A stretch of 54,913 nucleotides of DNA from a virus, in the IMG/VR virus record IMGVR_UViG_3300021425_003774, positions 1 through 54,913 of that record; one strand, given 5' to 3'. The translations under genes were made by a program, and so were the position numbers. The notes under the pieces were generated by a model. That model had not been told where the DNA came from. It ran no database searches and was given only the letters and a program-made list of their open reading frames with translations. Below, piece by piece: positions 34,528-38,570 of the stretch (position 1 is its first letter; the number at the start of each line of letters is the position of its first letter).

Positions 34528-34746
34528 TTATTTTTTAGAGAAATAAGATCGAATCAGAAAGATTCTAGTGTATGCCACTATAGTCATAACTAAAGTGACC
34601 AGAGTGCCCAACATGACAGGGTCAGTAATACCAAACCGTTCTATATAGATATACAACAAAAAGAGGTTTAGAGGGTAATTTATGGCTAGGCCGGTTGCGA
34701 TTTGAAATGAAGTTTCTTTATGAATTCTTTTTGTTTCTGGTTTCAT
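34528..34746 (-). CDS. Small two-helix membrane protein (DUF7220-like)
   Basis: A 72-residue protein starting MKPETKRIHKETSFQIATGLAINYPLNLFLLYIYIERFG, with a second hydrophobic stretch VMLGTLVTLVMTIVAYTRIF. The layout TKR...SFxE/QxxTGxxI-two TM segments-RSYF resembles small phage membrane proteins of the DUF7220 type. It overlaps the hemC stop (ATGA), so it is translated with hemC. It should sit in the inner membrane. The role is unknown. Confidence 0.75.
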   Translation of the reverse strand: MKPETKRIHKETSFQIATGLAINYPLNLFLLYIYIERFGITDPVMLGTLVTLVMTIVAYTRIFLIRSYFSKK

Positions 34747-35585
34747 TTTATGTTTGTGCCGAGTTCACGACCAATAGTAATGTATTCTTCAATAGGTCCA
34801 TGATTAAGACTTAATTGCTGAGTTTCAAAATTCTTTGCTATCATGTGTATTGTCTTATTATCTATATATGAAAGTACACCAATAGGAGTATGACAATCTC
34901 CATCTATTTCTCTTAACATTGCCTTCTCTGCCATTGCACAAAACCAAGTATCAATATGATTCTTTGACCAAAGCTTTGCGAAAATTGCTTCATCACGCTC
35001 ATCGTTTAGCTTACGTGTTTGTAAAGCAATAACTCCTTGATTAGGAGCAGGTATCATATCTGCTGTTCCAAATATTCTACTTGCTTTTATAGTAAGTCCT
35101 AAAGCATCAAGACCTGCCTTTGCTAAAACAATTGCATCATATTCTCCATTTTCTTGTTTCGCAATACGAGTATCTATATTACCACGAATAGGAACAATCT
35201 CTGCACCTGGATAAAGATCCATTAATTGATACATTCTTCTTGGACTGCTTGTACCTATTGTTCTTGGATTAACTGCATTACCTATTAAACAATCTCTAAA
35301 GTCAGCTCTTGGTAATACACAAGGAATATCTAACAAGTGATCGTTATCTCTTGTCATGTCTTTCATTGCATGGCATGCAATATCAATATGATGTTCTATT
35401 AATGCGGCTTCTATTTCTTTTGTGAATACACCCTTTCCACCCATTTCTTGGATTGGTGTCTTTGGGTTAAGATCTGCTGTGGAATCTATAAGGACTTGTG
35501 TTGTGTCAAACTCTAAATGTTTTTGAGCTGCTTTAGTATAGGCAAGAGCAAGCTTTGATTTTCGAGTTCCAATTAATGGTATCAT
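34743..35585 (-). CDS. hemC: Hydroxymethylbilane synthase (porphobilinogen deaminase)
   Basis: A 280-residue enzyme that joins four porphobilinogen molecules into hydroxymethylbilane in heme/tetrapyrrole synthesis. Motifs seen: IGTRKSKLAL (5-14), GKGVFTKEIE (50-59), HAMKDM with the catalytic-type Asp76, GTSSPRR (111-117), RGNIDTR (134-140), PAPNQG (179-184) and GDCHTPIG with Cys231, the residue that carries the dipyrromethane cofactor. All key residues are present, so it should be active. Somewhat shorter than the usual 300-320. The start is ATG 35585 behind AAGGAC, 15 bases downstream of tRNA-Glu, so it is probably cotranscribed with that tRNA. On the early strand, while hemE is on the late strand. 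Confidence 0.95.
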   Translation of the reverse strand: MIPLIGTRKSKLALAYTKAAQKHLEFDTTQVLIDSTADLNPKTPIQEMGGKGVFTKEIEAALIEHHIDIACHAMKDMTRDNDHLLDIPCVLPRADFRDCLIGNAVNPRTIGTSSPRRMYQLMDLYPGAEIVPIRGNIDTRIAKQENGEYDAIVLAKAGLDALGLTIKASRIFGTADMIPAPNQGVIALQTRKLNDERDEAIFAKLWSKNHIDTWFCAMAEKAMLREIDGDCHTPIGVLSYIDNKTIHMIAKNFETQQLSLNHGPIEEYITIGRELGTNIK

Positions 35586-35600
35586 ATTTTGTCCTTATCT

Positions 35601-35675
35601 TGGTAGCCCGTAGGAGAATCGAACTCCTGTTGCATGGATGAAAACCATGTGTCCTAACCACTAGACGAACGGGCC
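35601..35675 (-). tRNA. tRNA-Glu (anticodon UUC), CCA encoded
   Basis: The minus strand folds as a full cloverleaf. The acceptor stem is GGCCCGT/ACGGGCT (one G-T pair), the anticodon stem-loop is CATGG-TTTTCAT-CCATG, and the T arm holds GTTCGATTC. CCA is encoded at 35603-35601. It lies between the large RNA terminator and hemC. Confidence 0.93.
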
Positions 35676-35679
35676 GAAT

Positions 35680-35733
35680 AAAAAAACGGCGGATCTTCCA
35701 TATACGCCTATCAAAGGTATGTCAAGATCCGCC
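35680..35733 (-). terminator. Rho-independent terminator of the large RNA
   Basis: A ten-pair perfect stem (35688-35697 with 35724-35733), a 26-base loop that can extend by a short inner stem, then seven T on the minus strand. It ends five bases before tRNA-Glu, so tRNA-Glu and hemC depend on read-through or an unseen promoter. Confidence 0.88.
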
Positions 35734-36343
35734 TAGGTATTGAACTTCAGTGTCACAATCGTCATTTGGTCTTACTGCCTTTCTAAAGGACCTGATGACT
35801 AATCAGGGATTTCAAACTACCTTAGTGATTGGAAATATTGTGTTAACGCAATTCGTTAAATAATGTGGAATTGTTAATCGTAATATTCCAATCGAAAAAA
35901 CTTAAAAATTCGTGGGTACGTCTCTCGGACTTATCTGTTACTTGTTAACTCCAGTCTCGGAGGTAGCAAACTACCTCTATACCTAAAGGAGAAAGATCCT
36001 AGACTGCCGTCTTGTGTTGGTTTGGGTGCAAACCTAAACCCTATCTCTTTCACAGTGCGCGGTTCGTAACCGACTTCAGTATCGAGCGTTTCTTCATACA
36101 CGGAGACGCTTTGATACCCACTCTATTGATTTCGTTCTGACCCGTATAATTACATGTATTCCTACATCGGCCCTCTCATTACTCTGTGAATATATCTGTT
36201 ACGATGGGATATATTCAACAGCTTCAGCTGCCGGTCGGGTTGTCCACCTATATATTAGAGCCTTCCGATTGATAAGATCTTCTATTCGACTCAGGTTCTC
36301 TACTCACCGATTGTCTCTGTCGGTGGGGTGTTTCCCTCAATAT
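35680..36343 (-). ncRNA. Predicted large structured noncoding RNA, about 660 nt
   Basis: No credible ORF exists on either strand between 35676 and 36397. The stretch has a perfect sigma-70 promoter at its start and a strong terminator at its end. Many self-complementary stems are visible: 36305-36325 (CACCGA/TCGGTG), 36188-36216 (9 pairs), 36019-36034 (GGTTTG-CACC-CAAACC), 35960-35977 (7 pairs), 35827-35893 (long stem enclosing a TTAACG/CGTTAA hairpin at 35843-35859) and 35791-35807. Size, structure and a place beside a phage tRNA fit the large phage RNA classes GOLLD (about 800 nt) or ROOL (about 550-600 nt). I could not match the sequence to either. No tmRNA tag or tRNA-like domain and no group I or II intron core was found. 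Confidence 0.75.
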
Positions 36344-37241: not shown

Positions 37242-37805
37242 TTAAGCAACTTCAGTTGCATTCCACCATTCAGGAATGTCACGTTTGGACCATGTCATAC
37301 TAAAACGCTTTTGCTTTGTATGATAAAATGCGCGGTATGATTCTACCGCATCTTCAGATATGCATTCTGGATTTGATGCCATCGCAAGTCTGAATGGTGT
37401 TCTTTTATTTGACCTATGGATATTCACAGGAGGTGCCTTTAAGGCCTGTCTTAGTTTTCTATCGGTTGCATGTATCTTTCCATACCTATGCGTGTATTCA
37501 TCACACAATGCAACAAAATGTTTATAGTGCCAATTATAGTTGGCTGAATTTTCTCTTGTCCAAATAGTACATGGATGATTGAAATGACATGCTTTATACA
37601 ATGTCCTTTCTCTTTCTTTGTCTTCAAGATAAAAGTATTGTAGCATAGAACCACTCTTTGATGGTCTACGCTCCATTATGCCGTCAATCATACGATGAGT
37701 TGTTGAAAGCATTTGTGCAGATTCAATAACCATCTTAACAACATGTTTATCACATTGCTGTTGAGCAGCTTTAATTGGGTCGTCGTCTAAAATAAAAAGA
37801 TTCAT
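37242..37805 (-). CDS. Conserved phage protein MNLFILDDDPIKAAQ-type, unknown function, probably leaderless
   Basis: A 187-residue protein starting MNLFILDDDPIKAAQQQCDKHVVKMVIESAQMLSTTHR. It has NHPCTIWTRENSANYNWHYKHF and PPVNIHRS, conserved blocks seen widely in T4-like and other phages, with several conserved His, Cys and Trp that suggest an enzyme. No function is established that I can state. Only seven bases (AGACATT) lie between the -10 box of the promoter at 37813 and the ATG, and no ribosome site is visible, so the mRNA may be leaderless. Confidence 0.82.
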   Translation of the reverse strand: MNLFILDDDPIKAAQQQCDKHVVKMVIESAQMLSTTHRMIDGIMERRPSKSGSMLQYFYLEDKERERTLYKACHFNHPCTIWTRENSANYNWHYKHFVALCDEYTHRYGKIHATDRKLRQALKAPPVNIHRSNKRTPFRLAMASNPECISEDAVESYRAFYHTKQKRFSMTWSKRDIPEWWNATEVA

Positions 37806-38541: not shown

Positions 38542-38570
38542 ATTATACTATAGTTCTTTATGAATGTCAA
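38542..38570 (-). promoter_or_regulatory. Consensus sigma-70 early promoter
   Basis: TTGACA (38565-38570), 17-base spacer, TATAAT (38542-38547), 31 bases from the -10 edge to the ATG at 38511. Identical over 32 bases to the promoter at 36350. Confidence 0.9.

Follow-up and report, generated by a model that had tools for sequence, protein, structure and literature searches.

Few classes of RNA from bacteria or phages are, to our knowledge, as large and complex as the one described here; among them are GOLLD and ROOL, whose structures are solved and whose function is not known. OLE (RF01071), an ornate RNA of ca. 600 nt and poorly understood function, is bacterial and occurs mostly in Gram-positive organisms. 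The protein bS21 is a reported partner of OLE (PMC12054373). Phages and prophages encode ROOL (RF03087), a large structured RNA frequently located close to tRNAs, and the ROOL RNA studied has 659 nt; GOLLD (RF02032), also a large phage RNA found near tRNAs, has a conserved 3′ region and a variable 5′ region, and one of the GOLLD RNAs studied is marine and lies next to a tRNA; both form RNA-only cages (PMC12286853). Lytic phages additionally produce abundant non-coding RNAs without ORFs, such as a transcript of ca. 800 nt from ICP1 and lnc001 and lnc002 from phage K, some of which have an early promoter to themselves and lie close to genes for tRNAs (PMC7567579, PMC9241854).

The locus analysed here (35680–36343, all its features on the minus strand) lies in viral record IMGVR_UViG_3300021425_003774, whose 54,913 nt are hereafter called the window. 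It very probably belongs to a genuine family of structured non-coding RNA genes, which we judge from its sequences to be new, resembling GOLLD and ROOL in kind but apparently not homologous to them. Comparative sequence analysis is the basis for what follows on the family, its promoter, terminator and helices, its non-coding character, the exchange of its modules and its varied neighbours.

Organization of the RNA gene

The initial annotation, made from the window sequence alone, had proposed a large, structured, tRNA-adjacent non-coding RNA running from a perfect sigma-70 promoter to a ten-pair terminator, and these elements were confirmed (Table 1). The distance from promoter to terminator is about 660 nt, and the position of the −10 box places the putative start of the RNA near 36343. 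A simple terminator scan (loops of 3–8 nt) missed the terminator because its loop has 26 nt; its stem occurs in the family as seven different paired sequences, whose departures from pairing are G.U and never A.C. As had also been pointed out, the 32 nt of the promoter are repeated identically, flanks included, at 38570–38542, ahead of a protein gene. An overall promoter scan found no more sites than in shuffled sequences, and the promoter of the RNA stands out by its perfect match and its conservation.

Of the perfect TTGACA-17-TATAAT promoters in the window, six are minus-strand sites and a single one is on the plus strand; the six form a near-identical set, probably of the early type. The minus-strand region 37242–37805 weakly matches a pyrimidine-dimer DNA glycosylase in Pfam (24.9 bits, barely above the cut-off).

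Table 1. Features of the RNA gene and its surroundings in the window.
Feature	Position	Strand	Evidence or remarks
Six perfect promoters	53632–53604, 52054–52026, 38570–38542, 37841–37813, 36378–36350, 34504–34476	minus	Scan
Sigma-70-type promoter of the RNA, TTGACA-17-TATAAT	36378–36350	minus	12/12 consensus match; kept in relatives
5′ end of the RNA, conserved ATATTGAGGGAAACACCC and hairpin P1 (GGG/CCC)	36326–36343	minus	Invariant or nearly so
P2 hairpin, CACCGA/TCGGTG	36305–36325	minus	Compensatory CACCAA/TTGGTG, CAA/TTG, CTG/CAG, CCG/CGG
P4/P5 hairpin domain, GAGTC/GGCTC, conserved TTATCA loop	36258–36292	minus	Pairing alternatives in homologues judged by eye only
Domain II: AGGTGGAC, P6, P7, GGAA-loop hairpin P8	36141–36249	minus	Covariance model R1, 65.9 bits
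Inserted hairpin within domain II	36221–36184	minus	
Highly conserved unpaired motif AGAACGAAATCAATAGA	36122–36138	minus	Alignment; served as search anchor
Core helix, 5′ strands	36103–36121	minus	GTGGGTA (36121–36115) and CGTCTC (36108–36103), pairing with 35924–35912
P11, TGTAT/ATACT around conserved GAAGAAACGCTCG	36078–36100	minus	Outer pair lost in the window
P10 hairpin, CGGTT/AACCG	36060–36072	minus	Others GGG/CCC, CGG/CCG, CCC/GGG, GAT/ATC
P12 hairpin, GGTTTAGGT/ACCCAAACC	36019–36040	minus	Eight distinct paired sequences in the family
P13 hairpin, AGAC-GGCA-GTCT	36001–36012	minus	Elsewhere GAAC/GTTC, TGAC/GTCA, GCTC/GAGC, GGAC/GTCC
P16 (CTCC/GGAG) around P15 hairpin GAGGTAG-TTTG-CTACCTC	35949–35991	minus	Covariation
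Conserved GATAAGTCCGA, then core helix 3′ strands GAGACG and TACCCAC	35912–35935	minus	Alignment and pairing
M1, long hairpin with conserved CACATTATTTAAC loop	35827–35893	minus	Outer and inner stems covary in relatives
M2, three helices and conserved motif CAAATGACGATTGTGA	35736–35821	minus	Covarying stems; coreless in L196, L214, L227
Intrinsic terminator	35680–35733	minus	10-bp stem GGCGGATCTT (35733–35724)/AAGATCCGCC (35697–35688), 26-nt loop with conserved CATACCTTTGAT, then seven T (35686–35680)
tRNA-Glu (TTC)	35601–35675	minus	ARAGORN and Rfam; directly downstream of the terminator
hemC (porphobilinogen deaminase)	34743–35585	minus	Pfam PF01379, 196 bits; downstream of tRNA-Glu

Distribution of the family

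About 65 viral contigs carry the RNA, namely the window and ca. 64 further contigs from IMG/VR, a count from which duplicates on the same contig were removed by hand and that includes a few fragments. The first homologues were obtained using hemC as a neighbour anchor, followed by blastn with the region upstream of hemC, and further members with patterns from the 5′ end, the internal unpaired motif, M2 and P13, as well as with profile searches. Those found by blastn range from L003, with 76% identity over nearly the full length, to the more distant L018, L019 and L025. The 5′ flank is present in 57 contigs, including the window, and TTG[AC]C[ACT]-17-TATAAT occurs in the same place in all 57, either as TTGAC[AT]-17-TATAAT or with one mismatch, L138 having TTGCCT. 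Covariance model R1, built for this analysis, scored members with at least 62.7 bits and the best non-member with 25.6 bits; the L203 subgroup, in which domain II is replaced, was missed by R1 and detected by a profile of the whole core. The window contains the 5′ motif, domain II as recognised by R1, P11, P13, P16 and the core helix, and scores 375 bits with the nhmmer family profile.

The phage in the window is T4-like, with a major capsid protein 65% identical to those of Methylophilales phage Melnitz and phages of the phiM12 group, and porphobilinogen deaminase has been placed in a pelagimyophage group (PMC7029224). The carriers of the RNA are T4-like and probably marine phages. A single copy of the RNA was found in the only record of near-genome length that was searched (156 kb), and HTVC008M lacks the RNA. 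Searching bacterial genomes with a pattern of promoter plus 5′ motif returned 13 chance matches, mostly inside genes, and the literature searched, mostly outside subscription journals, contained no description of the family.

Comparison with known RNA families

A cmscan search against Rfam 15, covering the window and seven homologue loci, identified only tRNAs, with no match to GOLLD, ROOL, an intron or a ribozyme; a permissive cut-off (E of 5–10) gave chance matches only, and membership of a known Rfam family was rejected. The ROOL model (RF03087, threshold 99.1 bits) had no match at E ≤ 1 in nine records (the window and eight members), a result that is informative because the model does detect known ROOL, finding the RNA of the L. 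salivarius megaplasmid pMP118 with 130.4 bits. The GOLLD model (RF02032, threshold 150 bits) likewise had no match at E ≤ 1 in the nine records, a weaker negative since it matched no GOLLD positive control; the Lactobacillus prophage region tried as control contained no GOLLD. The initial annotation had left two options, a marine member of GOLLD or ROOL and a new class: the models lend no support to the former, and the lack of any Rfam match favours the latter.

The new RNA is similar to ROOL in size, but by model neither its 5′ end nor its domains and loops have counterparts in ROOL. It shares with GOLLD the proximity to a tRNA, as in the window, although its most conserved part is the 5′ end and that of GOLLD is the 3′ region. 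Like the RNAs of ICP1 and phage K it lacks an ORF and, like some of them, has its own promoter and lies near a tRNA; however, blastn of three members against 50,697 phage records, including those of cultured phages, returned only tRNA-Glu, promoters and short chance matches. We know of no covariation model for the ICP1 and phage K RNAs. With OLE it has in common a similar size and complexity and, in one subgroup, an adjacent gene for bS21, but there was no Rfam match to OLE and the parallel may be coincidental. A family unrelated to GOLLD and ROOL has their habits, being phage-borne and adjacent to a tRNA, with its own strong promoter, no ORF and an elaborate fold, which suggests that phages have repeatedly adopted large structured RNAs for some purpose during infection.

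Covariation of the core helices

Around 16 helices of the core, including a long-range one that closes its 3′ half, remain paired while both strands change. Helix by helix, the two strands were collected from every member, and their own pairing was set against that obtained after swapping strands between members. Own versus swapped pairing was 100% and 49% for P3 (an additional hairpin that P2 bears in other members), 100% and 56% for P8 and for P12, 100% and 37% for P10, 100% and 36% for P15, 100% and 68% for P16, 96% and 76% for P11, and 88% and 62% for P13; the parts of the core helix gave 94–100% versus 50–83%. In P11, 97.7% of the cells are paired, with variants such as GGTAT/ATACC, AGTTT/AAACT, GGTGT/ACACC, AGCAT/ATGCT and CACAT/ATGTG.

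Many of the helices had been selected visually ahead of scoring, so counts made on fixed columns of the alignment weigh more than the swap test. The covariation score was 0.586 for P10 plus P11 (shuffled 0.203 ± 0.026, and never above 0.21 when the strands were slid), 0.566 for P15 plus P16 (shuffled 0.313 ± 0.028) and 0.489 for P6–P8 of domain II (shuffled 0.164 ± 0.019), the latter from a covariance-model alignment, which leans to structure. None of 500 shuffles, and no slide, reached the observed number of paired cells, of doubly changed cells or the score in any of the three sets, whereas the counts of pair types were not above those of the shuffles. When all column pairs were scanned with no structure given beforehand, P11 and P16 ranked first.

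The most telling structural element is the long-range core helix, which joins the end of domain II to the core's 3′ end. Its window version pairs GTGGGTA..CGTCTC with GAGACG-TACCCAC; its counterparts are GGTGGTAC..CCCAAC with GTTGGGTACCACC in L018, GACTG..GGC with GCC..CAGTC in L025, and GCGGGT..CCTGTC with GACAGGTACCCGC in L203, and in L038, L041 and L043 a change from GGC to GAC is matched by one from GCC to GTC in the partner. Covariation of the stems among homologues, on whose absence the RNA could have been rejected, is therefore present.

Two alternative partners, one local (36053–36057) and one distant (35912–35918), are available to the core-helix 5′ strand at 36115–36121. The local pairing is AGTG/CACT in the window and ACTG/CAGT in others, and a switch between both pairings is conceivable, although the local one is missing from two subgroups. 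A local helix P9 competing with the core helix was dropped, as two subgroups do not keep it.

Folding energy and strand

It is covariation that establishes the structure, and not the number of hairpins or the folding energy. The many perfect hairpins highlighted in the initial annotation do exist, but their number is not significant and the energy of the single sequence is ordinary. For the window, the whole RNA folded with z = −1.85 on the transcript strand and z = −7.3 on the opposite one (20 shuffles each), while the mean z over 26 unique members was −0.24 and 0.06, respectively. Thermodynamic stability gives evidence for neither strand.

The opposite strand was considered as the RNA on account of the low z value in the window, and was rejected because neither strand is unusual over the 26 members and because the promoter and the U-tailed terminator are both on the minus strand. 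Departures from pairing through wobble also lean to the minus strand, with 13 G.U versus 2 A.C in hand-chosen helices and 5 versus 0 in M1 and M2; in fixed columns the column types number 11 versus 6, A.C being inflated there by errors of register.

Modular architecture

The transcript is modular, with a core of ca. 430 nt followed by two 3′ modules, M1 and M2, that are also found without the core, and its size in the family ranges roughly from 430 to 660 nt. In L081 and the L095–L138 group, the RNA ends directly past the core with its own perfect terminator. Conversely, M1 and M2 occur in L196, L214 and L227 with no core, 3′ of an ORF of ca. 40 residues and 5′ of a terminator and tRNA-Glu, and it is possible that these modules are there a separate RNA element tied to tRNA-Glu.

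Sequence comparison indicates that the domains of the core are exchanged between phages: between L036 and L041, identity is 95% in domain I and 57% in domain II, whereas between L045 and L018 it is 64% in domain I and 96–99% in domains II–III. L002 (1983–2409) carries a natural deletion of most of the core, retaining the promoter, the 5′ end, M1, M2 and the terminator; the core would then be dispensable in this phage, which counts against the trans-acting scaffold favoured below. The dozens of variants, the domain swaps, the deletion in L002 and the lone 3′ modules are a ready set for testing the parts of the RNA.

Downstream genes and possible control in cis

The main rival to a stand-alone RNA is a long 5′ leader acting in cis, which, on sensing a protein, a tetrapyrrole or charged tRNA-Glu, would decide between termination and read-through into hemC, tRNA-Glu or some other gene downstream; we regard this as unlikely. 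The downstream neighbours are of at least five kinds (hemC, tRNA-Glu, bS21, tail-tube-like and Hsp20-like; bS21 was identified by Pfam PF01165, and the latter two were named by eye, the tail-tube fragment having no Pfam match), instead of the constant gene expected after a leader. Furthermore, L081, L095, L101, L114, L238, L240 and L241 are compact units of promoter, RNA and terminator with a separate promoter afterwards, the terminator being strong in the first four, and bS21 has its own promoter. Varied downstream genes and an intervening terminator favour a transcript working on its own. The RNA is also missing from most relatives with hemC and is far larger than usual leaders.

Nevertheless, in seven members (L003, L018, L025, L031, L035, L036 and L037) a terminator or closing hairpin shortly precedes the start of hemC and a second promoter is not evident, so some control of hemC by read-through is possible in this subset; M1 and M2 also precede tRNA-Glu even without the core. 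In the window and many members the tRNA-Glu gene follows the RNA directly; several other subgroups lack it.

The arrangement of hemC with tRNA-Glu (TTC) directly upstream (34743–35675 in the window, minus strand) recurs in many relatives without the RNA (L008–L024). Glutamyl-tRNA is the start of the C5 pathway to tetrapyrroles, so this pairing may be either meaningful or accidental. A phage bS21 gene is situated 3′ of the RNA in L033, L038, L041 and L043.

Possible function

The explanation that we favour, with moderate confidence, is a stand-alone non-coding RNA gene, with core and 3′ modules, acting in trans as a scaffold or particle. Host RNA polymerase would start at the RNA promoter soon after infection, and the transcript, probably abundant, would comprise the core and its swappable 3′ modules and stop at the terminator. 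It would fold compactly, its 3′ half closed by the long-range helix, and might then serve in trans as the scaffold of a particle, made either of RNA only, like those of GOLLD and ROOL, or of RNA and protein. This action in trans, proposed by analogy with GOLLD and ROOL and with the abundant RNAs of ICP1 and phage K, is plausible but tentative. Rather doubtful is the bolder proposal that large phage RNAs forming such particles have in this family a third class of independent evolutionary origin, with domains that recombine between phages.

A decoy or sponge for host factors (RNases, parts of the ribosome or RNA polymerase), or an RNA that base-pairs with host RNA, would agree with the early-type promoter common to other phage genes and with the adjacent bS21 in one subgroup; the elaborate conserved architecture exceeds the needs of a sponge, which makes this quite unlikely. 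Less likely still is a ribozyme or a decayed self-splicing intron. The large size, the GNRA-like and UUCG loops, the long-range core helix and the strongly conserved unpaired stretches would suit one, but none of the ribozyme and intron models of Rfam gave a match, even with E relaxed to 5–10, and the promoter directly upstream leaves no 5′ exon, which argues against an intron.

The absence of an ORF, already noted in the initial annotation, was checked throughout the family. ORFs on the RNA strand reach 56 codons in the core of the window, inside the shuffled range, and 67–107 codons in some group-A members, lengths across the family being in or near that range; no ORF was conserved among members, since place and frame differ. 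Despite the longer ORFs of group A, it is extremely improbable that the region hides a coding sequence or is a spacer with no function, because compensatory pair changes extend over many helices, beyond what any single ORF could explain.
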